IMG/VR virus record: IMGVR_UViG_3300028802_000056
Coordinates: 1 to 23,866 of that record
DNA from: a virus
Strand: one strand, 5' to 3'
DNA: 23,866 nucleotides
Of this stretch, positions 1 through 8,168 are shown one piece after another; the stretch's first letter is position 1; every line of letters starts with the position of its first letter. The notes under the pieces were generated by a model, which was not told where the DNA came from, searched no databases, and saw only the letters and a program-made list of their open reading frames with translations. A program made the position numbers and the translations under genes.

Positions 1-234
1 GAACCGGGTCAGGATGAGGGACAGGCCACGCCCGTTCCCCTGATGCTTCGCGTCCCAGACGCAGCGATACGTGTAGCACTCGCTGTCCGTAGGTGCCCAC
101 GGGAGCCCTCGCGGGAACACGCGGTCACTAGGGGCCGGGGCGGTCCTGGCGGACGCCTCAGCGGGCTGTGAGGCCCCCTCAGAGGCAGCGACGACCAGCA
201 GGGCGGTGAGCGCGGCGGCGGCTAGAGTCCTCAT
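1..234 (-). CDS. Small secreted/exported hypothetical protein, 3' part beyond the window
   Basis: This reading frame starts at ATG 234-232 and runs off the left edge, so about 78 residues are visible. It begins MRTLAAAALTALLVVAAS, a short positive N-terminus followed by a hydrophobic stretch typical of a signal peptide, then an Ala/Pro-rich linker. The rest contains CYTYRCVWDAKHQGNGRG, a Cys/Trp/Gly signature I associate with small proteins of unknown function in actinobacteriophages. The start lies two bases after the stop of the upstream gene, so translation is probably coupled; there is only a weak GGGG upstream. I infer export or membrane anchoring; the function is unknown. The start is well supported, the C-terminus is not visible. 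Confidence 0.6.
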   Translation of the reverse strand, partial: MRTLAAAALTALLVVAASEGASQPAEASARTAPAPSDRVFPRGLPWAPTDSECYTYRCVWDAKHQGNGRGLSLILTRF

Positions 235-236
235 GA

Positions 237-746
237 TCAGTACCCCATGCTCTCTGCGCGGTGGTCGCGCTGCCACGGGCGCTCGTCGGGGCACTCGTCC
301 TCGCACCAGCGGACCTCGGCGGCTCGGTAGCCCTCTTCCGTCTGCTCGTGCCAGTGGAGGCCGGTGGCGGAGACCGTCAGCGTGCCCTCCCCGTGGAGGC
401 TGACCACGTTCCCCATGACCCGCTCCTTGAAGTGCAGGTCGCCGAACTGGTCGCATCGCTCCAGCACGGTCATGTCGTCGACGTGGCCTCCACTGTAGTC
501 CCCGTCGCAGTCGCGGCTGCTCGTGTCCACGTGCGCGTGAACGCGGAAGTGGGTTCGCCACGCGCCGGTGGTCCCGGCCCAGAGGTCTTCCTCTGCCGCC
601 TTGACCCTGCGGTGCGGGTCCAGGTCCACGTAGAAGTAGAAGTCGCCCTCGGCGTCTCCGACCCCCGGCTGGACCCTCTTCACCACGCCGACCTTGCCGT
701 CGTATCGGCGCTCGACCCACTCGCCGATGCTGAACTGCTGTTCCAT
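237..746 (-). CDS. Hypothetical protein with N-terminal SH3-like segment (169 aa)
   Basis: The start is ATG 746-744, preceded by the strong ribosome site AGAGGAGAAACGAG; longer frames begin inside the leader with the tRNA-like element and are rejected. Residues 1-60 (IGEWVERRYDGKVGVVKRV, then a Tyr/Phe strand and VKAAEEDLW) look like a small beta-barrel of the SH3/KOW kind found in many small phage proteins. The middle is rich in His and Asp. The C-terminus has two Cys three residues apart in an acidic context (CEDEC). No catalytic motif is visible and no function is assigned. It is the third gene of a minus-strand unit and is followed after two bases by the signal-peptide gene. Confidence 0.65.
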   Translation of the reverse strand: MEQQFSIGEWVERRYDGKVGVVKRVQPGVGDAEGDFYFYVDLDPHRRVKAAEEDLWAGTTGAWRTHFRVHAHVDTSSRDCDGDYSGGHVDDMTVLERCDQFGDLHFKERVMGNVVSLHGEGTLTVSATGLHWHEQTEEGYRAAEVRWCEDECPDERPWQRDHRAESMGY

Positions 747-769
747 CTCGTTTCTCCTCTGTGCTGGCT

Positions 770-782
770 GGGGCTGATCCCC
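770..782 (-). other. Small leader hairpin downstream of tRNA-like element 1
   Basis: GGGG (770-773) and CCCC (779-782) flank a five-base loop. The same 13 bases occur at 1258-1270 in the next leader, inside an 18-base identical block. It lies between the tRNA-like element and the ribosome binding site of the 237-746 gene, where it could protect the 5' end of a processed mRNA. Confidence 0.5.
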
Positions 783-790
783 GGCCTCGT

Positions 791-830
791 GCCCGCCCCG
801 GACTCGCACCGGGGTGTCTGCTGGTCGGGC
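791..830 (-). other. tRNA-like leader element 1 (acceptor/T-arm minihelix)
   Basis: Read on the minus strand: a 5-nt arm GCCCG (830-826), an 11-nt single-stranded insert (825-815), a 6-bp stem CCCCGG/CCGGGG around the 7-nt loop TGCGAGT (808-802), then CGGGC (795-791) closing the outer stem. This is the geometry of a tRNA T-arm stacked on an acceptor stem with the D and anticodon arms replaced by a bulge. T54, C56, R57 and A58 equivalents are kept; the position 55 equivalent is G. It lies wholly in the gap between the genes 839-1234 and 237-746, with 44 nt from its 3' end to the ATG. Two relatives occur at 1281-1320 and 3349-3390. Confidence 0.6.
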
Positions 831-838
831 GTCCATGC

Positions 839-1234
839 CTAGTACTCGTTCGGGAAGAGCGGGCGACCGAGCATACCCTCCTCGGCCTCACGGTTCAGCG
901 CGTCGGCCAGCCAGGAGCCGTCGTCCACCCCCACCCCGCTCATCGTGTCGAGGATGCGGGCGCACTCGGCCTCGTCGTGCTCGTGAGGGCCGAACTCCCG
1001 GTCGCAGGGCCGGTCGTTGAATCGGGCGTTGCGGACGGGGAGCGGGTCTCCGGCGCAGTACCCTCCGCCGGTCCACTCGTAGGTGCCGTCCCCGCCGAGC
1101 GGGTTGGCGCTGACGTGAGGTCCGCGGTGCCCCGCGTCCAGTTCGCAGGTCGCGCCGTAGGGGTCGCTGCCGCCGAGGGTCACGCTGGACCCGCACATCC
1201 GCTCTTGCTCGGCGATGAACTCGTCGTACGTCAT
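839..1234 (-). CDS. Hypothetical protein with Cys/His cluster (131 aa)
   Basis: The start is ATG 1234-1232, preceded by AGAGAAGAGGAACAG; longer upstream starts would read through the tRNA-like leader and are rejected. The protein begins MTYDEFIAEQERMCG. Residues around 31-42 carry CELDAGHRGPHV, a C-x6-H-x3-H type cluster I recognise from many small actinophage proteins and which may bind a metal. More Cys/His follow (CAGD, CDREFGPHEHDEAEC), making a second possible metal site. The C-terminal quarter is acidic and helical. The function is unknown. It is the second gene of the unit that starts with the 1368-1814 gene and is separated from it by a GC hairpin and tRNA-like element 2. Confidence 0.65.
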   Translation of the reverse strand: MTYDEFIAEQERMCGSSVTLGGSDPYGATCELDAGHRGPHVSANPLGGDGTYEWTGGGYCAGDPLPVRNARFNDRPCDREFGPHEHDEAECARILDTMSGVGVDDGSWLADALNREAEEGMLGRPLFPNEY

Positions 1235-1257
1235 CTGTTCCTCTTCTCTGCGTGGCT

Positions 1258-1270
1258 GGGGCTGATCCCC
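1258..1270 (-). other. Small leader hairpin downstream of tRNA-like element 2
   Basis: GGGG (1258-1261) and CCCC (1267-1270) around a five-base loop, identical to the hairpin at 770-782. It lies between tRNA-like element 2 and the ribosome binding site of the 839-1234 gene. Confidence 0.5.
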
Positions 1271-1280
1271 TGCCTGGAGC

Positions 1281-1320
1281 GCCCGCCCGGGACTTGAACC
1301 CAGGAGTCTGCCAGTCGGGC
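1281..1320 (-). other. tRNA-like leader element 2 (acceptor/T-arm minihelix)
   Basis: On the minus strand: GCCCG (1320-1316), an 11-nt insert containing GGCAGAC, a 6-bp stem CCTGGG/CCCGGG with one U-G pair around the canonical T-loop TTCAAGT (1298-1292), then CGGGC (1285-1281). The outer 5-bp stem is identical to elements 1 and 3, while the inner stem differs but still pairs. The 3' flank reads GCTCCA, which resembles a tRNA 3' end. A complete cloverleaf cannot be drawn: no D-arm or anticodon arm is present in the 11-nt insert. It lies 46 nt before the start of the 839-1234 gene. Confidence 0.6.
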
Positions 1321-1323
1321 TTA

Positions 1324-1359
1324 CCCGCGTGTCCCCACCCCCCAGCGGGGACACGCGGG
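1324..1359 (-). terminator. Perfect 13-bp hairpin after the 1368-1814 gene
   Basis: CCCGCGTGTCCCC (1324-1336) and its exact complement (1347-1359) flank a 10-nt loop. It begins nine bases past the stop of the 1368-1814 gene. No U-run follows on the minus strand, so it is either an inefficient terminator or an mRNA-stabilising or processing hairpin. An 11-bp hairpin holds the equivalent place after the paralogous gene at 3413-3439. Confidence 0.5.
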
Positions 1360-1367
1360 CGGGTGGA

Positions 1368-1814
1368 TCAGGCGTGCGCCTTGACCACCTTGGTGAGGAC
1401 GGCAAGCGCGTCCTTCTGCGGCTTGTCGGCCGCACCCTTGTCCGCGGCCGCGAGCGCAGCGGCCAGCGCGTCCGGAATGGACGTGCCCTCCGGGATCGCC
1501 ATGTCGTCGGCGTAGGCCACGACGTTCGGCGTGGTGCCCTTGGCCCAGCCGACGTTTCCGCCGGGGGTCTTCCACGCGAGGTGGGTGACCAACTGGAGCG
1601 CCTGCGTGACGTCCGTGTTGCCCTTGGCCGCCGCCTTGGCCGACTTCAGGGCCTCGGCGAAGCCCTCCACGTCGCGGTAGGCGGGCTTGGCCGGGACCTT
1701 CGGCGCGGACGCCTTGGGCTCGGTCGCCTCGGGCTTCTCCGCCTTCGGCTTCGCGGCGGTGCGCTTGGCCGGAGCCGGGGTGGACTTCTGGGTCTTCGTG
1801 CTGCTGGTGGTCAT
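1368..1814 (-). CDS. Ala/Lys/Pro-rich protein, paralogue A (148 aa)
   Basis: The start is ATG 1814-1812 with GAAAGG about nine bases upstream. Residues 1-45 form a tail of Lys, Ala, Pro and Thr resembling histone-H1-like tails. Residues 46-148 look like a small helical domain beginning AYRDVEGF and containing VTHLAWKTPGGNVGWAKGTT. The gene at 3448-3810 has the same plan and shares the core THLAW-x2-P-x3-V-x-W-x-KGT, so the two are paralogues. A nucleic-acid-binding or nucleoid-type role is possible from the basic tail, but this is inference. It is the first gene of a minus-strand unit with a leader closely matching that of its paralogue. GA and TC dinucleotides are abundant here (seven in the 60 bases 1368-1427), unlike in paralogue B. 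Confidence 0.7.
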   Translation of the reverse strand: MTTSSTKTQKSTPAPAKRTAAKPKAEKPEATEPKASAPKVPAKPAYRDVEGFAEALKSAKAAAKGNTDVTQALQLVTHLAWKTPGGNVGWAKGTTPNVVAYADDMAIPEGTSIPDALAAALAAADKGAADKPQKDALAVLTKVVKAHA

Positions 1815-1835
1815 GGGACCAACCTTTCTCTTCTG

Positions 1836-1876
1836 GTATCGGCCTCCCCTTGGTGGGCTGCCTAGAGGCTAGCCTA
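1836..1876 (-). promoter_or_regulatory. Conserved leader block shared by both paralogue genes
   Basis: Read on the minus strand, TAGGCTAGCC is followed by a short variable base run, then TAGGCAGCCCAC and AAGGGG. The same order, with only a few differences, is found at 3834-3863 before paralogue B. There TAGGCT forms the -10 box of a good promoter; here TAGGCT lacks a good -35 partner. GGCTAGCC is a perfect palindrome. It may be a promoter/operator or a 5'-leader signal. Confidence 0.5.
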
Positions 1877-1950
1877 GCAGGGTTGAGCCCTCTCGGGTAG
1901 GGTTTTGACGGTGTTTTGCTCCACTGATTTGCAATAGTTGAAGGGCCTTG

Positions 1951-1979
1951 ATCCTAGCACACCGCCTATCACTGGACAA
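1951..1979 (-). promoter_or_regulatory. Predicted sigma-70-type promoter for the leftward unit
   Basis: On the minus strand TTGTCC (1979-1974) is followed by a 17-nt spacer and TAGGAT (1956-1951). Transcription would start near 1944 and give a leader of about 130 nt for the 1368-1814 gene. The match is by eye. Confidence 0.45.
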
Positions 1980-2004
1980 GGGGTTGGAGGAGGGTCTTTC
2001 GGGC

Positions 2005-2291
2005 GTACCCGTATGGCGGCTGATCGTCGTATGGGTACGGGTACAAGGGTACGAACGTCAGTTGGGTTGTACCCGTACTGGATGAAAGAAGTCGTAGCCT
2101 AGCGCGTGGCTAGTAGTCTTCTTGCTAGCCGGAGGGGTACTCTAAGACATTCCAATGATACGCCATTGTTCAGGAATTCGGTTCTGGAGACCGATCCTCC
2201 TACTCCTCGCGTCACGTAAGGGTACAATACAACTGACGATCGTACCCGTGTACCCGTACCCGTACGAGTCCGCCCGACGTCGCACGGGTAC
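2005..2291. repeat. Cluster of eleven GTACCC/GGGTAC sites (consensus GTACCCGTA)
   Basis: Sites start at 2005, 2033, 2039, 2047, 2069, 2135, 2220, 2242, 2250, 2256 and 2286, in both orientations. Several extend to GTACCCGTA. The arms 2035-2046 (GTACGGGTACAA) and 2067-2078 form a perfect 12-bp inverted repeat with a 20-nt spacer. CGCACG (2281-2286) and CGTGCG (2291-2296) form another. The density over 290 bp suggests binding sites for a phage or host DNA-binding protein. Confidence 0.7.
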
Positions 2292-2308
2292 GTGCGGCTA
2301 GGCTCAAA

Positions 2309-2443
2309 AGTCGGCACTGAAGTCGGCTTACGACGCGCCTAGCGCGTGGCGTTCTGCAAGAGCCTGTTCTGGACTTGCAGAACGCGACATACGACGTACG
2401 AAGTCGCCCCCGAGTCGGCTTACGAGTCGGCTTACGAGTCGGC
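2309..2443 (+). repeat. AGTCGGC iterons at 12-bp spacing
   Basis: AGTCGGC starts at 2309, 2321, 2413, 2425 and 2437. Within each of the two groups the spacing is exactly 12 bp, and the full unit in the second group is AGTCGGCTTACG. The groups flank the 12-bp inverted repeat at 2349-2385. This arrangement resembles replication iterons, although no initiator gene is in the window. Confidence 0.6.
2349..2385. repeat. Perfect 12-bp inverted repeat with TTCTGCAAG arms
   Basis: GCGTTCTGCAAG (2349-2360) and CTTGCAGAACGC (2374-2385) are exact complements around a 13-nt spacer. It follows GCCTAGCGCGTGGC (2338-2351), which also occurs at 2098-2111. The half-site TTCTGCAAG recurs at 8137-8145 in front of the protease gene, so this may be an operator for the same protein. 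Confidence 0.6.
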
Positions 2444-2474
2444 GCGGCGACGTCACGTCCGCCTCGGGGGCGAC
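2403..2474. repeat. Second 12-bp inverted repeat enclosing the iterons
   Basis: GTCGCCCCCGAG (2403-2414) and CTCGGGGGCGAC (2463-2474) are exact complements and enclose most of the second AGTCGGC iteron group. Confidence 0.5.
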
Positions 2475-2504
2475 GAACCGTCCGCGGGCACCGCCGCCGA
2501 GCCT

Positions 2505-2800
2505 GATCGTCGGGCTGGACGCCGTCCTGTCCGGGATCCGCGGCTCCGCGGCGAAGCCGCTGCGCCGAGGACGATCGTCCGGGCAGCGGCCCGCCGACGC
2601 AGCCGTCGGCCGCGGAGCCGCCGGACGATCCTCGTCACGCCGCCCGCCGACGAGGATCGTCCGGCGAGACGCCGCCCTACCCGGCCCGCCGAGGACGAGG
2701 ATCGTCCGCGTAACCGGGCGGGCCGGAGGATCGTCGCCGACGATCGTCGGGCGGCTTCGCCGAGACGAGGATCATCGTCGGCTCCGCGACGAGGATCATC
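2505..2800. repeat. Field of GATCGTC/GACGATC repeats and small GC hairpins
   Basis: GATCGTC or its complement occurs at 2505, 2570, 2573, 2624, 2655, 2700, 2729, 2739 and 2742, with GATCATC variants at 2770 and 2794. Many lie in the longer context GACGAGGATCGTCCG. Short palindromes such as GCGGCGAAGCCGC (2550-2562) are interspersed. The region is extremely GC-rich and does not look coding in any frame. Confidence 0.55.
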
Positions 2801-2817
2801 GGGGGGCGGGCACGCCG

Positions 2818-2851
2818 AAAAGCCCCCCGGCCCGAGGGCCGAGGGGCTTGT
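2818..2851 (-). terminator. Rho-independent terminator of the right-hand minus-strand unit
   Basis: AAGCCCC (2820-2826) pairs with GGGGCTT (2843-2849), and an inner GGCC/GGCC stem extends the hairpin. On the minus strand the stem ends in GGGGCUUUU. It lies about 16 bases past the stop of the 2867-3079 gene. The bases just before it (2849-2864) repeat the CCGGCAGGAGCGACAA motif of tRNA-like element 3. Confidence 0.7.
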
Positions 2852-2866
2852 CGCTCCTGCCGGTCG

Positions 2867-3079
2867 TCAGCCGACCAGGAGGTTCCCGTTCAGGACGGTG
2901 CCGCCGGACAGGACGTGGGAGACCCACTCCGGTCCGTACTGCGGGACCCGCCGCCCGAAGTAGGAGGCGCAGCGGTGGCAGTCCGCCTTCGCGGCGTCCT
3001 CCCATGCGACGTCACCGAGTACGAGCGGCAGGTCGCAGAGCGTGCGAGTGGTGCCGCCCGCGTGGATGTGGATGGTCAT
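2867..3079 (-). CDS. Small Cys-motif hypothetical protein (70 aa)
   Basis: The chosen start, ATG 3079-3077, overlaps the stop of the upstream gene by one base (TGATG), suggesting coupled translation, with GAGGG about 11 bases upstream. A start four codons earlier at 3091 is possible but would place GAGGG too close. The sequence begins MTIHIHAGGTTRTLCDLP and contains ADCHRCASYFGRR, giving a C-x22-C-x2-C pattern typical of small actinophage proteins that may bind zinc. The function is unknown. It is the last gene of its unit, followed by a terminator. Confidence 0.6.
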   Translation of the reverse strand: MTIHIHAGGTTRTLCDLPLVLGDVAWEDAAKADCHRCASYFGRRVPQYGPEWVSHVLSGGTVLNGNLLVG

Positions 3080-3309
3080 CAGACGGCCCATCCCTCGTCG
3101 TTGCGGGTCGGGGCCAGGAAGTTGCCGCCGAGGGCGACCCGCTTGCTGCGCCCGCTGGGGGTCTGGATCATCAGGACCACCTGGTCCGTCACGTCGAACT
3201 GCCCGAGCAGATCGGCGAGGTTGACGTCCACGTAGTGGATCGTCTGGGTGTGCGTCTGTACGGACACCGTGTCGCGTCCGCTCCCGCGGACGCTTTTCAT
3301 GCTGGTCAT
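3079..3309 (-). CDS. Hypothetical protein (76 aa)
   Basis: The start, ATG 3309-3307, is preceded by GAAGGAGGAACG, the best ribosome site in the left arm. The protein begins MTSMKSVRGSGRDTVSVQTH and has alternating hydrophobic strands (TIHYVDVNLADLLGQF, TDQVVLMIQT) ending in an Arg/Lys turn. I do not recognise the family. It is the second gene of the unit that starts with paralogue B and follows tRNA-like element 3. Its stop overlaps the start of the next gene by one base. Confidence 0.6.
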   Translation of the reverse strand: MTSMKSVRGSGRDTVSVQTHTQTIHYVDVNLADLLGQFDVTDQVVLMIQTPSGRSKRVALGGNFLAPTRNDEGWAV

Positions 3310-3327
3310 CGTTCCTCCTTCGTGGCT

Positions 3328-3340
3328 CCCGCTTGCCGGG
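3328..3340 (-). other. Small leader hairpin downstream of tRNA-like element 3
   Basis: CCCG (3328-3331) and CGGG (3337-3340) flank a five-base loop. Sequence differs from the hairpins at 770-782 and 1258-1270, but stem length, loop length and position between tRNA-like element and ribosome site are the same. Confidence 0.45.
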
Positions 3341-3348
3341 GGCCTCGT

Positions 3349-3390
3349 GCCCGCCCCGGAATCGAACCGGGGTTGTCGCTCCTGCCGGGC
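3349..3390 (-). other. tRNA-like leader element 3 (acceptor/T-arm minihelix)
   Basis: On the minus strand: GCCCG (3390-3386), a 13-nt insert GCAGGAGCGACAA (3385-3373), a 6-bp stem CCCCGG/CCGGGG around the canonical T-loop TTCGATT (3366-3360), then CGGGC (3353-3349). The 3' flank ACGAGG is the same as in element 1. It lies 39 nt before the start of the 3079-3309 gene. The 5' arm plus insert are duplicated in tandem just upstream. Confidence 0.6.
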
Positions 3391-3410
3391 GGTTGTCGCT
3401 CCTGCCGGGG
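3371..3410. repeat. 20-bp tandem duplication of the 5' half of tRNA-like element 3
   Basis: GGTTGTCGCTCCTGCCGGG occurs at 3371-3389 and again at 3391-3409. A shorter copy (TTGTCGCTCCTGCCGG) is at 2849-2864, directly before the terminator hairpin. Confidence 0.7.
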
Positions 3411-3412
3411 GT

Positions 3413-3439
3413 GCCCCCGCCGCTGGCGGCGGCGGGGGC
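3413..3439 (-). terminator. 11-bp GC hairpin after paralogue B
   Basis: GCCCCCGCCGC (3413-3423) pairs perfectly with 3429-3439 around a five-base loop, just past the stop of the 3448-3810 gene. There is no U-run on the minus strand, so termination would be weak. It matches the place of the 13-bp hairpin after paralogue A (1324-1359). Confidence 0.45.
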
Positions 3440-3447
3440 GGCGGCGG

Positions 3448-3810
3448 CTACTTGCCAGCGGGGGCCAGCGCGGCGGTTTCCTTGCGCAGCGCGGTTGTGG
3501 TGGGGTGCGCGGGCAGGCTTGCCACCACAAGGGCCATAGCGGCGTGCACGGGCTGGCCGGTGGAAATCCCCAGCGTGGCGGCGTGGGCCAGCATGGCCGC
3601 GTTAGTGCCCTTGTGCCACGCCACGGCGGCGGCGGGGGCACGCCACGCAAGGTGGGTTGCCACGGTGCACGCGGCGCGCGCCGTGGGGTTGCCACGGTGC
3701 GCGCCCACGGCGGCGGCGTGGGCGGCGTGCCACGCGGGCACGGTGCGGTAGGGGCCGGGCGCGGCCACGGGGGCGGCGGGGGCGGCGGGGGCGGCGGGCT
3801 TTGCGGGCAT
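3448..3810 (-). CDS. Ala-rich protein, paralogue B, with GA/TC-depleted gene (120 aa)
   Basis: The start is ATG 3810-3808 with AAAGGAAA upstream. The protein has a Pro/Ala tail (MPAKPAAPAAPAAP) and a domain with VATHLAWRAP and VAWHKGTN that matches paralogue A at 1368-1814. By my count 41 of 120 residues are Ala; there is no Asp or Phe and only one Glu. The gene contains only two TC and one GA dinucleotide on the plus strand, and none in about 250 bp (3569-3817), while AG and CT occur about 18 times. Synonymous choices fit this: every Val codon is GTG, CTC is absent, and GCA is used before codons that begin with A. The function is unknown; the paralogue's basic tail hints at nucleic-acid contact. 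Confidence 0.65.
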   Translation of the reverse strand: MPAKPAAPAAPAAPVAAPGPYRTVPAWHAAHAAAVGAHRGNPTARAACTVATHLAWRAPAAAVAWHKGTNAAMLAHAATLGISTGQPVHAAMALVVASLPAHPTTTALRKETAALAPAGK

Positions 3811-3833
3811 GGCGGTTTCCTTTGCTAGTGGCG

Positions 3834-3886
3834 GCCCCTTGTGGGCTGCCTACGGCTAGCCTACCACGCGGCGTGACCGCGCACAA
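3834..3886 (-). promoter_or_regulatory. Predicted promoter and conserved leader of paralogue B
   Basis: On the minus strand TTGTGC (3886-3881) is separated by 17 nt from TAGGCT (3863-3858). Transcription would start near 3851, giving a leader of about 40 nt. The sequence from TAGGCTAGCC through AAGGGG closely matches 1836-1876 before paralogue A. Confidence 0.5.
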
Positions 3887-3934
3887 ATCCGCCGCCCCCC
3901 GCGGAGACGACCGAGGTCCCCCTCACCGGGTTTT

Positions 3935-3954
3935 GAGATCGCACATGGAATCTC
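3935..3954. promoter_or_regulatory. Small inverted repeat in the divergent promoter region
   Basis: GAGAT (3935-3939) and ATCTC (3950-3954) are spaced by 10 bases in the 266-bp gap between the leftward and rightward gene blocks. It could be an operator, but the arms are short. Confidence 0.2.
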
Positions 3955-4003
3955 ATTCTCCGCACGCATAGCCGAGACACACGCATGGAGATTCCCTCAG
4001 GTG

Positions 4004-4009
4004 TATGCT
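4004..4009 (+). promoter_or_regulatory. Possible -10 box for the rightward structural genes
   Basis: TATGCT lies 68 bases before the first rightward gene. No convincing -35 hexamer is found at 16-18 bases, so this is tentative. Confidence 0.3.
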
Positions 4010-4076
4010 GAGCCCCGGTCGGACGTTCCCGTGGAAGTTCGCAGCCTGACAACCCCACAACGACAGAGGAGAAGTC

Positions 4077-4319
4077 ATGGCTGTGAAGTGCGTGTTCTAC
4101 ATCTCAGGCGTCGAGAAGCGAGCGAACGGTGTCGGTGTCCTGAATGCCCAAGCGACCGCGAAGGGTCCGTACAAGGAGTGGGCGCAGTTCACTCCAAGTG
4201 GGACTCTCCAGATCAGTAGCCTGAACCCTGCGGCGACGGACTGGTTCCTGGAGCGGATCGGCAAGGACGTCACGATCCTGATCGACGATGCGACAGAGGC
4301 GGATCTGCTGACGCCGTAG
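4077..4319 (+). CDS. Small conserved phage protein (80 aa)
   Basis: The start is ATG 4077 with AGAGGAGAAGTC directly upstream. The protein begins MAVKCVFYISGVEKRANG and contains WAQFTPSGTLQISSLNPAAT, ending in a short acidic strand. The PSG-x-L-x-[IL]-x3-NPAA pattern is one I associate with a small protein of unknown function found in diverse phages. It opens the rightward morphogenesis cluster, 13 bases before the terminase. A small-terminase role is conceivable from position, but there is no helix-turn-helix and I do not assign it. Confidence 0.6.
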   Translation: MAVKCVFYISGVEKRANGVGVLNAQATAKGPYKEWAQFTPSGTLQISSLNPAATDWFLERIGKDVTILIDDATEADLLTP

Positions 4320-4332
4320 TACCCTGCCCGCT

Positions 4333-5694
4333 ATGGCCTCCCTTTCGTCCACCGCGCTAGCCGATGGACTGAGAGAGCGCCTAGCGGGCAGAGTCATTCT
4401 CCAGCACCATCAAGTCCCCCCGTGGAGGATACCCCCCGGCTCTGCCCGCGACCCGGGAGAGAACGCCGACGCGCTCGGGTTCGCGATGCTGGCGGGGCGC
4501 GGTGCCGGGAAGTCGTTCGCGGCGATGTGGGAACTCCACACGACGCTGAGCGAGACGAAGAACGTCCGTGCGCGGGTGATCGCGCCGACGTTGGGTGACG
4601 GCATCGCGGCTGCGGTGGACGGGCCGAACGGGCTGCTGACTCTGTCGAAGGGAGTCGCGAAGTGGCTGCCGTCTGCTCCCGGTGGCGCGTGCGTCCGCTA
4701 CCCGAACGGATCGAGAGTCTGGATCGTTGGCACGCCCACCGAGAAGGACGTGGACCGGCTTCGTGCTCTGACGAACATCGACTTCGACGTCTTTGAGGAG
4801 TTCTTCGCGAACCCGTGCGCCACTCAGGCGTTCCAGCAGGCGTCACTGTCCCGTCGTCGCGGGGCGATGCGGTGGCTGGTCTCCAGCACGCCCCGGCCTC
4901 ACGACCTGATCAAGAAGTGGGAGAAGGACGACTCGATCGTCGTGCGTCACGGCACGTCGATGGACAACAAGTACATCCCCCTGGAGTGGCTGCACACCCT
5001 GAACACCACGTACTACGGAACGAGGCTGTACCGCCAGGAGGTCTTGGGTGAGGTCATCGAGGATGTGGAGGGCGCGCTGTGGAAGGCGAACGACATTGAG
5101 CGGTCGAAGGTCATGGGGCCAGCCTCCGCCGTGGCTTCGATCTGCGACCGGATCGTGGTGGGGGTCGACCCGCCGACCGGGCAGGGGACCTGCGGAATCG
5201 TCGTGGTCGGCCAAGACGCGAGCGGTCACATGTATGTCCTTGACGACCGCTCGGTGGAGGAGGCCAGCCCGCACGTCTGGGCGGCGCGGGTGAAGGAGGC
5301 CGCCGACACCTACGACGCCGTCGTGATCGCCGAGATCAATCAGGGCGGGCAGATGGTGAAGGAGGTGATCAACTCCGCTGGACACGCGCTTCCGATTCAC
5401 ACGGTGAACGCGACCAAGAACAAGAAGACGCGGGCGGAGCCGATTGCGCTTCTGTGGGAGGTCGAGGAGCAGATCGTTCACATGGTGACGACGAGCGGGA
5501 AGTTGATCGACGAGTTGTGCGAGTGGGTGCCGGGTGAGACTCCGGCGTCGCCCGACCGGCTGGACGCGATGGTCTGGGCGTGCTGGTACTTGAGGTCAAG
5601 GCATACAGCCGTCGTCCGAGGGAGTAGTGTGTCGGTGCCGGGGCCGGTCGGGCTCCCCTCGGCCCTGAGCAGCGTGCGTATGGGCCGGTTCTGA
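4333..5694 (+). CDS. terL: Terminase large subunit (453 aa)
   Basis: This is the DNA-packaging motor: an ATPase that drives DNA into the prohead and a nuclease that cuts concatemers. Walker A is AGRGAGKS at residues 54-61, Walker B is FDVFEE at 151-156, and the SST coupling motif is at 184-186. In the nuclease half, acidic residues in GVDPP (Asp279), IAEIN (Glu334) and RLDAMVWA (Asp411) fit the RNase-H-like active site. The length is normal. The start is ATG 4333, 13 bases after the previous stop; the ribosome site is weak, so translation may depend on coupling. No separate small terminase is recognisable next to it. Confidence 0.93.
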   Translation: MASLSSTALADGLRERLAGRVILQHHQVPPWRIPPGSARDPGENADALGFAMLAGRGAGKSFAAMWELHTTLSETKNVRARVIAPTLGDGIAAAVDGPNGLLTLSKGVAKWLPSAPGGACVRYPNGSRVWIVGTPTEKDVDRLRALTNIDFDVFEEFFANPCATQAFQQASLSRRRGAMRWLVSSTPRPHDLIKKWEKDDSIVVRHGTSMDNKYIPLEWLHTLNTTYYGTRLYRQEVLGEVIEDVEGALWKANDIERSKVMGPASAVASICDRIVVGVDPPTGQGTCGIVVVGQDASGHMYVLDDRSVEEASPHVWAARVKEAADTYDAVVIAEINQGGQMVKEVINSAGHALPIHTVNATKNKKTRAEPIALLWEVEEQIVHMVTTSGKLIDELCEWVPGETPASPDRLDAMVWACWYLRSRHTAVVRGSSVSVPGPVGLPSALSSVRMGRF

Positions 5695-5706
5695 GAAGGA
5701 GAGAAG

Positions 5707-6210
5707 ATGAACGTAACGCATGACCTGATCGCGGCGGTGACCGGACCCGGCTGGAAGTTCGGGCTGAGTCGCATCCTCATCAACGACGAGGAAGAGGGAG
5801 TCGTGTTCATCGCCGGCTCCGAGGAGCCGTACGCCGCGTTCGCCGTGCAGAGCATCACCACCGGGCGAGGCACCGGCGTCAGCGAGGAAGGCCCGATCTC
5901 GTGGCGCAGGCGCGGGTCATCGTGTCAGTACAAACTCGCGAAGTGCAAGGTGGACACCGCGACCATGACGTCGTGGTGGGAGGCCTCCCTCGTGGAGTCA
6001 CCGGAGCCCGAGACCGTCGAACTCCCTGAGGACGACGACACCCAGGAGATGGACGTCGTGCCTGACGGCTCCGCTGCCGTGGTGCTGGAGTGGGTCGGCA
6101 ACGACGTGGACCGGGCGCAGGCCGCGCTGGAGGCCGAGCAAGAGGGGAAGCAGCGCGTCGGCCTGACCGCTGACCTCGAGAAGATGCTGGCGGCTGAGGA
6201 ACTCCTGTGA
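5707..6210 (+). CDS. Hypothetical protein between terminase and portal (167 aa)
   Basis: The start is ATG 5707 with AGAAGGAGAGAAG upstream. Residues 1-95 look like a beta-rich domain with a basic patch (SWRRRGSSCQYKLAKCKV). An acidic linker (about 97-120) leads to a C-terminal helical segment, VLEWVGNDVDRAQAALEAEQ, a recurrent short motif in actinophage proteins. The function is unknown. Its last bases overlap the GTG start of the next gene. Confidence 0.65.
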   Translation: MNVTHDLIAAVTGPGWKFGLSRILINDEEEGVVFIAGSEEPYAAFAVQSITTGRGTGVSEEGPISWRRRGSSCQYKLAKCKVDTATMTSWWEASLVESPEPETVELPEDDDTQEMDVVPDGSAAVVLEWVGNDVDRAQAALEAEQEGKQRVGLTADLEKMLAAEELL

Positions 6211-6476
6211 TCTCTGTTGCCGTGATCTCTGGGCTGGTCGGATTCTGGTTCTGGTCAGTCCTCAACGACGACACCGGAATCGCAGCCCCGGTGAACAGGC
6301 TGCTCGAGAAGAACTCGTTCACCAAGAAGTGGATGATCTGTCCGTTCTGCTCCGGTGCATGGTTCGCCATCATCCCCTCCCTGATCTTGCTCCACGATCC
6401 GCTAGACGTGGCCGTGATCACCGCCTTCGCCGCTGCTGCCCTCACCGGCCTGCTCGGCTCGTACTTCGGAGACTGA
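6207..6476 (+). CDS. Small membrane protein with C-x2-C-x-G-x-W motif (89 aa)
   Basis: The start is GTG 6207, overlapping the stop of the previous gene (GTGA). Two hydrophobic segments, residues about 1-20 and 51-84, flank a short polar loop. CPFCSGAW at 45-52 matches the Cys/Trp signature of the DUF1360-type family of small membrane proteins. Predicted location is the host membrane. Its place before the portal is typical of small actinophage membrane proteins of unknown role; superinfection control is possible but not shown. Confidence 0.65.
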   Translation: MISVAVISGLVGFWFWSVLNDDTGIAAPVNRLLEKNSFTKKWMICPFCSGAWFAIIPSLILLHDPLDVAVITAFAAAALTGLLGSYFGD

Positions 6477-6479
6477 CTC

Positions 6480-8168
6480 ATGGCCTACACACCGCCCGCC
6501 ACCCTCGTCAGGAATCAGCAGATTCAGGCGTGGGGATACTACGGAGCCTACGGAGCGGCGGCTGCGGCGGCTGCTGCCACGCCGAAGACCGCCGTCTACG
6601 GTGCTGTCATCCCGGGGACTGAGGCCGTCGGTGAGGTGCGCTACATCGTCGGGTGGGCCTCAGACCAGATGTCCCGAATGCAGTGGGACGTCTTCGTCGA
6701 CGGGTCCGCGGACTGGGAACTGGAACTCTCCAACGGCAAGACCGTCGTGTCCGGCGGCAAGGGCGAGAAGAAGCATCCACACTCGAAGGCGTCGGCCGAG
6801 GTGCTCAAGTCCATCGGCTGGACGACCGGCACGGTCCGGCTTGTCACGACGAACCTGTACGTCGCTGGCGAGTTGTTCTACGTCTACATGGACAAGGACT
6901 GGCGGGTGGTGTCGGTCATCCACCCCGACCAGCCGTCCATCTTCAAGGAGGCGGAGCACGTCGTCCGGGGTTTGTGGCCCTCACCCATCGACCCGACGAC
7001 GCCGGACGCCCCGCTGTTCGGCGTGCTGGCGATCCTCTGTGACATGGACTGGCTCGGCCGCTTGAGCCGTGCTCAGTCCGCGAACCGGGTGGGGATGCGC
7101 GGCATCTTGGGCTCGGCCGACGGCCTGAACTTCGCCGGTGGCGGAGACTTCTGGGAGGAGTGGGACAAGTCGCTCCGGGCCAAGATGCTCGACCCGACTG
7201 ACGTGGGGCCGGTCCACCTGCGAGGCGCGAAGGAACTCGTCGAGCCGATGGCGAGTGGCCGGGGCATGGGCGGGCTCTCCTGGGTTGTGCCCGACTTCCC
7301 CTACGACGCCCGCATCGAGGGCCGCATGGAGGCCATGATCCACCGGCTGGCGTACGGCCTGCCCATCCCGCCCGAGATCCTGCTGGGGCTGTCGGCGCAG
7401 AGCCGAGCCACTGCCTTCCAGGTCGAGGAGAACTCGTACCGGGCGCACATCGAGCCGCCAGCCAACATCGTCGCTCAGGTAGCGACTGACGTGCTGAACA
7501 CTCTCTTCGAGGACGTGGAGGTCGAGGTCAAGCCGGACCCGACCCTCCTCCTCGCCAAGCGGTCCACGGTCCAAGACGTCAAGGACGCCTACGACCGGGG
7601 TGAGGTCAGCGGTGACTATCTCCGCGAGGTGCTCGACATCCCGTCGCACGCCGCCCCGTCCGATGAGGAGCGGGCACGCCGCCAGACCATCGGCGTCGAT
7701 GCGGAGGAGGGCGGTCACAGCCCGACCACCGAGACGCCCCGCCAGCGGGCAGCACGCGCCGACCGGGAGGACCCCAGCGGTGCTCCTGCCGATCAGAAGG
7801 ATCTGGATCCCACTGTCATCGCGGAGTGGCGTGGCAAGATCGACGTCGCCACGTTCCGAGCACGGGACCGGGTGGGTGCCAAGGCTCGCACGCACAAGGT
7901 CCTGAGAGACGCCCTGCCGTCCAACATGACCAACGACGCGGTGCCCGCCCACCTGGGACTCCAGGCGCTCGAGAGCGCGGGGCTGGATGTGGCCTCGGTG
8001 GTGTCCGACAGTCTCCTGTTCCTCGGTCCACGGTCCTGTGCAGGGGACAACCTTGTGGATGGGTTGACCGAGCATGTGCTGGCAACGCTGGACAGCGCCG
8101 ATCCGGTCCCCCTGAAGGACGAAGATTTGGCAAATCTTCTGCAAGGGCTTGCAAACACCCCTGACTGA
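6480..8168 (+). CDS. Portal protein (562 aa)
   Basis: This is the dodecameric ring at the capsid vertex through which DNA is packaged. The start is ATG 6480 with GGAG nine bases upstream. After an Ala-rich N-terminus, the sequence shows the portal plan: an early beta-rich part (VRYIVGWASDQMSRMQW), a long helical core (LAILCDMDWLGRLSRAQSAN), and the motif YGLPIPPEILLGLS with a following helix, as in actinophage portals. The C-terminal 150 residues are charged and probably flexible. Its place after terminase and before the capsid protease supports the call. The 3' end of the gene (8121-8153) carries the operator-like palindromes of the next gene. Confidence 0.85.
   Translation: MAYTPPATLVRNQQIQAWGYYGAYGAAAAAAAATPKTAVYGAVIPGTEAVGEVRYIVGWASDQMSRMQWDVFVDGSADWELELSNGKTVVSGGKGEKKHPHSKASAEVLKSIGWTTGTVRLVTTNLYVAGELFYVYMDKDWRVVSVIHPDQPSIFKEAEHVVRGLWPSPIDPTTPDAPLFGVLAILCDMDWLGRLSRAQSANRVGMRGILGSADGLNFAGGGDFWEEWDKSLRAKMLDPTDVGPVHLRGAKELVEPMASGRGMGGLSWVVPDFPYDARIEGRMEAMIHRLAYGLPIPPEILLGLSAQSRATAFQVEENSYRAHIEPPANIVAQVATDVLNTLFEDVEVEVKPDPTLLLAKRSTVQDVKDAYDRGEVSGDYLREVLDIPSHAAPSDEERARRQTIGVDAEEGGHSPTTETPRQRAARADREDPSGAPADQKDLDPTVIAEWRGKIDVATFRARDRVGAKARTHKVLRDALPSNMTNDAVPAHLGLQALESAGLDVASVVSDSLLFLGPRSCAGDNLVDGLTEHVLATLDSADPVPLKDEDLANLLQGLANTPD
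8121..8139. promoter_or_regulatory. 8-bp inverted repeat at the end of the portal gene
   Basis: GAAGATTT (8121-8128) and AAATCTTC (8132-8139) are exact complements with a three-base spacer. It lies directly upstream of the palindrome over the -35 box of the protease promoter and is unusually AT-rich for this genome. Confidence 0.5.
8140..8153. promoter_or_regulatory. Operator-like palindrome TGCAAG-GG-CTTGCA
   Basis: Perfect 6-bp arms with a two-base centre, overlapping the -35 hexamer at 8149-8154. A further half-site CTTGCAG occurs at 8204-8210 just inside the gene. Extended to the left the arm reads TTCTGCAAG (8137-8145), identical to the arm of the inverted repeat at 2349-2385. Confidence 0.5.

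Follow-up and report, generated by a model that had tools for sequence, protein, structure and literature searches.

The 23.9-kb IMG/VR virus record analysed here at its full length (the window) carries three short minus-strand elements, each shortly before a start codon, which almost certainly belong to a real, selected RNA family. Covariation strongly supports a fold in which 40 nt rebuild the elbow of tRNA from a 5-bp acceptor-like stem, a 6-bp T-arm capped by a true T-loop, and a mimic of the D-loop. Punctuation of the operon transcript by RNase P is the best explanation of these elements, and we give it about an even chance. The elbow, a conserved purine and C directly after the helix (R41-C42) and a very wide distribution all go beyond the original prediction from this DNA.

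The window has its terminase, portal, capsid and tape-measure genes on the plus strand and small genes on the minus strand. Element 1 (e1) occupies positions 791–830, element 2 (e2) 1281–1320 and element 3 (e3) 3349–3390, all on the minus strand. They share one plan, i.e. an outer stem GCCCG/CGGGC, an inner stem of 6 bp and a loop of 7 nt. On the same strand, e1 is 43 nt from the start codon (747) of gene A (237–747), e2 is 46 nt from that (1234) of gene B (839–1234) and e3 is 39 nt from that (3309) of gene C (3079–3309). The stop codon of gene B lies 8 nt before e1. The bulge has 11 nt both in e1 (ACCAGCAGACA, with the loop TGCGAGT) and in e2 (ACTGGCAGACT, with the loop TTCAAGT); e3 is a divergent copy with a 13-nt bulge and the loop TTCGATT. 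The original prediction had described these three minus-strand elements with their stems, loops and distances to the start codons, and it is accurate in all these respects. The hairpins that it placed after the elements are also present, at 766–786 and 1254–1274 with the stem GGGG/CCCC and at 3324–3344 with CCCG/CGGG, a compensatory change with respect to the first two copies (all on the minus strand). Across the family there is a surplus of structure 3' of the elements, on average −10.2 kcal/mol vs −6.6 in shuffles.

A motif scan for the stems, the T-loop core and a GG or AG within the bulge recovers e1, e2 and e3 and no others in the window, and nothing in 500 Markov shuffles. The folding energy of single elements is unconvincing because the window DNA is GC-rich; z is only −0.4 to −1.4, and this measure was dropped as evidence.

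Positions are numbered 1–40 from 5' to 3', with the acceptor-like stem at 1–5/36–40, the bulge at 6–16, the inner stem at 17–22/30–35 and the loop at 23–29. In tRNA, the equivalents of positions 23, 24, 25, 27, 28 and 29 are 54, 55, 56, 58, 59 and 60; those of 9 and 10 are G18 and G19, and those of 41 and 42 are 73 and 74. A pattern with a fixed acceptor stem matched 51 stretches in IMG/VR, some of them chance or tRNA-like matches. Fixed- and free-acceptor patterns together gave at least 188 unique elements, in which every varying acceptor and T-arm pair is compensated. A covariance model (R1) was built from 106 sequences, picked partly by their bulge and loop letters; 98.9% of its cells pair, and its covariation is 0.83 vs 0.18 in shuffled and 0.09–0.16 in slid controls. 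Such a model had been proposed as a check on the prediction; it scores e2 at 61.2, e1 at 57.9 and e3 at 37.1 bits. In 1.76 Mb of related loci the motif scan detects 401 elements vs 0 in the same loci reversed; these loci had been chosen for their matches, so 401 cannot be taken as a frequency, and it is the zero in the controls that carries weight.

As the choice of sequences for the model depended in part on the letters of bulge and loop, a stem-only scan was run that leaves these letters free and asks for 11 Watson-Crick pairs in the stems, a bulge of 11 nt and R-C behind the stem. It finds 387 unique elements vs 2 in reversed sequence. T23 and A27 are present in 383 of the 387, although the scan required neither. 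Thus, the selection on a tRNA-like RNA structure that had been proposed from three copies is borne out by the family, and the compensatory changes expected in relatives are found in all varying stem pairs and in the tertiary contacts.

One correction to the prediction concerns the bulge, which is no passive feature and is instead the equivalent of the D-loop. In the stem-only set, the bases at 7 and 13 form a pair in all but one of the 387 elements (CG 250, GC 69, AU 57, UA 8 and GU two). G10 and C25 are invariant (383/383), while positions 9 and 24 switch jointly: 369 elements have G9/U24, 13 have A9/G24, one has G9/C24, and A9/U24 and G9/G24 do not occur (n = 383; these are counts of sequences and not of independent events). 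The A9/G24 type is seen with several different acceptor stems and also in Actinomyces phage xhp1. In the elbow of tRNA, G18 contacts U55 and G19 pairs with C56. The joint switch therefore directly indicates a docking of the bulge on the T-loop as in tRNA. By covariation the bulge is shown to be a miniature D-loop, closed by the lone pair 7-13, whose GG contacts the T-loop in the manner of G18-U55 and G19-C56. Two more pairs link the bulge to the loop (n = 383): 14-29 is AU in 245, GC in 102, CG in 16 and UA in 7 elements, and 15-28 is CG in 368 and GC in 7. Covariation likewise shows these two pairs, which involve the T-loop nucleotides equivalent to 60 and 59.

A nested fold that pairs GAC of the bulge with GUC of the loop, the energy minimum of e2, was rejected, as the neighbouring positions do not extend this pairing, position 13 covaries with 7, and C30 is fixed. 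It is because this nested helix is not extended that 14-29 and 15-28 are read as tertiary. A subtype in L010, L039 and L067 has a AACGGTTTTCG-like bulge and the loop TTCGATT and lacks Watson-Crick pairs at 14-29 and 15-28; it may dock in a slightly different way.

The original prediction held that the loop of the first copy keeps the T-loop equivalents. It is indeed of the T-loop type; however, TGCGAGT is no degraded loop but a compensated variant, A9 with G24, and e2 is a standard G9/U24 elbow. The orthologues of e1 before the same downstream gene (in L013, L048 and L041, where gene A homologues are also preceded by an element) are of the G9/U24 type, whereas e1 is A9/G24. For e3, the orthologues in L013, L048 and L007, which also hold gene C homologues, are 40-nt A9/G24 elements, whereas e3 of the window has GG with TTC. 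Orthologues of e2 are present in L048, L007 and L013, where the homologues of gene B are 83–89% identical. The 5' half of e3 sits inside a short tandem duplication, which may be the source of the longer bulge; a 23-nt piece of this half (GGTTGTCGCTCCTGCCGG on the plus strand) is duplicated in tandem (3369–3411) and occurs again at 2844–2866.

The elements have the features of a tRNA T-loop, i.e. U54-A58, the G53-C61 closing pair and, by covariation, the docking contacts 18-55 and 19-56. They also imitate the tertiary structure of tRNA, as virus tRNA-like structures do by definition, to judge from the covarying elbow contacts. They are no tRNAs, as originally predicted: the D stem, the anticodon arm and the variable loop are absent, with only 16 nt between G1 and the T-arm, and ARAGORN calls no tRNA in the window. 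A cmscan of the window against Rfam 15 gives nothing above the gathering score, only sub-threshold chance matches.

The family is carried by well over a hundred phage contigs. One identical pattern matches 119 stretches in viral contigs vs 5 in the genomes of bacteria and archaea (257 Gb), and the family is therefore mainly one of phages. Named carriers are Streptomyces Camvirus, the mycobacteriophages Oaker, Papyrus and Cuke, and phages of Gordonia, Actinomyces and Riemerella. Papyrus has 13 copies, Joe 9, Oaker 7, Cafasso 7 (five of them weak), Riemerella phage CRP6 2 and Neville 1, and Cuke has 8 by identity with L010; phiC31 has none. BLAST with single elements hits more than 100 Streptomyces and several dozen Mycobacterium records, counts that are upper-range guides, as some matches are ordinary tRNA genes or lie inside coding genes and are not counted as elements. 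Megablast of window positions 1–8000 against named phages gave no match. A related minihelix with a 10-nt bulge and a weaker score (34.5 bits) is seen in haloarchaeal tailed viruses of the Haloferacalesvirus group (L173:1880–1922, L293 and L294), where it follows a stop codon and is itself followed by a hairpin with compensated changes and then a start codon. That it belongs to the family is possible, not proven. The intergenic repeats described in HF2 (PMC8707807) are different from the elements.

Among 321 unique elements, 70% have the stop codon of an upstream same-strand frame 0–30 nt before them (13% of random positions) and 77% have a Shine-Dalgarno (SD) site and a start codon 30–90 nt after them (22% of random positions). 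The median distances are 8 nt to the stop codon and 44 nt to the start codon, and the stop codons peak sharply at 6–9 nt before the element. In a Riemerella phage, the start codon after an element has no clear SD site. The copies expected before other same-strand genes are found: all 17 of 17 IMG/VR records have every copy on one strand, with 2 to 15 copies per record. Among operon gaps of at least 75 nt, 8/9 hold an element in Joe gp54–79, 9/10 in Papyrus gp43–62 and 8/11 in Oaker gp40–57; a few of these are weak matches. Not every case is simply one element per gene, as L143 (9893–11361, minus strand), L059 and L146 have arrays of two or three elements, spaced by about 110–120 nt, in non-coding DNA that is rich in GGCRNGGC repeats. 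These arrays may point to a sponge or multi-cut role.

In the window, two small minus-strand genes upstream of e2 (1368–1814) and e3 (3448–3810) look like paralogues, with cross matches to the same relatives, and have no match in Pfam or PHROGs. The region 1870–2850 is a long non-coding stretch with a 71-nt inverted repeat (2027–2097/2197–2267, 80%) and, at 2480–2810, many GACGATCGTC-type repeats; it is a possible origin or regulatory region.

Outside the fold, conservation is confined to the end of the helix. In 285 standard elements G1 is found in 89%, C40 in 88%, R41 in 95%, C42 in 96% and A or C at −1 in 85%, and no appreciable information is found further out. The base after C42 avoids C (27/285), and U is rare at −1. 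In the window, R41-C42 is AC at 789–790 after e1, GC at 1279–1280 after e2 and AC at 3347–3348 after e3 (minus strand). The common form has 11 stacked pairs; variants with a 10-nt bulge often add a sixth acceptor pair and reach 12, and there too R-C usually follows the end of the stem.

We suggest that the elbow, G1-C40 (tRNA 1-72) and R41-C42 (73-74) would recruit host RNase P, which would cut at the 5' side of G1. Such a cut would place the end of the upstream message close behind its own stop codon, and the downstream message would start with its 5' end locked in a stable helix, so that the operon transcript would be split into single-gene messages by a tRNA punctuation in which the tRNA is reduced to its elbow. 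In the window a strong minus-strand hairpin (1321–1362) separates e2 from the stop codon of gene D; if e2 were cut at its 5' end, this hairpin would be the 3' end of the gene D message. The reading is based on the coincidence of the conserved G1-C40, R41-C42 and elbow with the contacts of bacterial RNase P, which reads the elbow by a platform, G1-C72 by A248 and residues 73–75 via L15 (PMC11143913, PMC13254310). It is well established that RNase P accepts hairpins made of an acceptor stem and a T-arm (PMC11143913), and RNAs are known to engage tRNA-processing enzymes by imitating the elbow (PMC4810234). An enzyme that acts at the end of the helix explains G1-C40 and R41-C42, unlike a pure elbow binder or a plain insulator. 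The reading is further supported by the placement between genes, in most wide gaps of one operon and on one strand, and the Riemerella start codon favours mRNA processing over a role linked to the SD site.

Of the features of an RNase P substrate, the elements have the elbow with its T-loop, a stacked acceptor helix and the equivalents of G1-C72, purine 73 and C74. The ruler of RNase P is 12 bp, an RCC end would strengthen its binding, and U is the preferred base at −1 in E. coli substrates. A span of 12 bp from T-loop to cut is reached by many of the 10-nt-bulge variants but not by the common form, and a full RCC(A) end is not kept. Three traits do not match a textbook substrate: the common form has 11 pairs, its second C is avoided and U is rare at −1. 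The arrays in non-coding DNA of some contigs and the lack of elements in phiC31 also count against RNase P punctuation.

The elements could instead remain uncut as insulators, their compact fold blocking run-on ribosomes, separating the translation of neighbours or shielding the next leader from decay. The stop codons peak 6–9 nt before the elements, which would place the elements roughly at the leading edge of a terminating ribosome; the fold is very stable, and the surplus hairpins lie further downstream. Even so, any stable hairpin would serve this purpose, the exact elbow, the 9/24 switch, the fixed G1-C40 and C42 are left unexplained, as are arrays with no gene between the copies, and we give insulation a small but real chance. 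An equally small chance goes to another tRNA-handling partner, such as RNase Z cutting after R41, a tRNA-modifying enzyme or a phage RNA-binding protein, or to the titration of such a factor, for which the arrays in L143, L059 and L146 would be suited. The elbow is read by RNase Z, the CCA-adding enzyme, TruB and ribosomal parts (PMC4810234), and the avoidance of C at position 43 is odd for RNase P. However, the hosts span several phyla, so this partner must be widespread, most modifying enzymes need neither G1-C72 nor C74, and CCA addition requires a free 3' end.

Two other explanations are very improbable. Known stimulators of readthrough or frameshifting, among them some viral readthrough signals, have a structure at a similar spacing, 6–9 nt after the stop codon; yet, relative to the stop, the downstream start lies in phase 0 in 62 cases, in phase 1 in 60 and in phase 2 in 70, and a path into the next gene is open in only 30 of 220, so the evenly spread phases and few open paths rule against it. 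The resemblance of the elements to the 3' half of tRNA genes could suggest remnants of such genes or attachment sites, and actinophages commonly have DNA sites that are repeated between their genes (PMC4351075, PMC9302106), so terminators or repressor sites acting at the DNA level also come to mind. This whole group has hardly any chance: decayed tRNA genes and DNA sites are ruled out by covariation that includes the tertiary contacts, by the constant length and by the constancy of strand, with many copies per genome; no tRNA is called in the window; and as terminators the helices lack a T-run, and T is not enriched over the next 30 nt.

Among the closest known systems are minimal RNase P substrates such as AT1 and pMini, which also stack an acceptor-like stem on a T-arm with a T-loop and have a purine and then C after the stem. 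These are laboratory constructs with 12 pairs and RCCA. The element of the phages occurs in nature and includes a docked D-loop mimic; most copies have 11 pairs, and R-C alone follows the stem. Mitochondrial tRNA punctuation likewise places tRNA-type folds between the genes of a polycistronic RNA, as the elements lie in almost every wide operon gap; however, mitochondria use whole tRNAs, which are themselves products, while the elements lack the D stem, anticodon arm and CCA. Mimicry of the elbow is shared with the tRNA domain of tmRNA, the 3' tRNA-like structures of plant viruses (TYMV) and mascRNA/menRNA, several of which are RNase P substrates (PMC11143913, PMC4810234). The elements differ from these in having 40 nt within an mRNA between phage genes, many copies per genome, a one-pair D-loop in the acceptor bulge, two extra pairs to the T-loop and no 3' CCA end; being internal to a gene leader and without CCA, they offer no free 3' end for charging or CCA addition. 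In actinophages, the SAS of cluster K, the 17-bp repeats of cluster O and the CaiB repeats are also repeated intergenic sites in one genome arm, and SAS and CaiB lie directly upstream of genes as the elements do. The comparison with SAS is one of position; the CaiB (PMC9302106) and cluster O (PMC4351075) repeats are conserved sequences and not an elbow minihelix.

No earlier description of the element was found in the open-access literature, although subscription journals, preprints or supplementary motif lists may hold one. It is thus an apparently undescribed, new topology within the tRNA-like structures, and no precedent was found for its setting between phage genes with many copies per genome. 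It would be one of the smallest RNAs in nature that are known to form a tRNA elbow, and many phage genomes carry it unannotated, among them those of laboratory phages of Streptomyces and Mycobacterium.

We speculate, at somewhat less than an even chance, that phages of several bacterial phyla, and possibly haloarchaeal tailed viruses, place an elbow mimic in nearly every wide gap of one operon to have their polycistronic RNA cut into single-gene messages by a tRNA enzyme that all hosts possess, most likely RNase P; this would be a tRNA punctuation that needs no tRNAs. If RNase P is the partner, this would account for the way in which phages tune single early genes, in stability and in level, without needing many promoters. 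The elements would then also provide natural substrates in series for testing the RNase P ruler and 3'-end contacts, and a portable tag for cutting synthetic operons. Should RNase P not be the partner, the structure still points to a widespread tRNA-reading factor that acts on phage mRNA.
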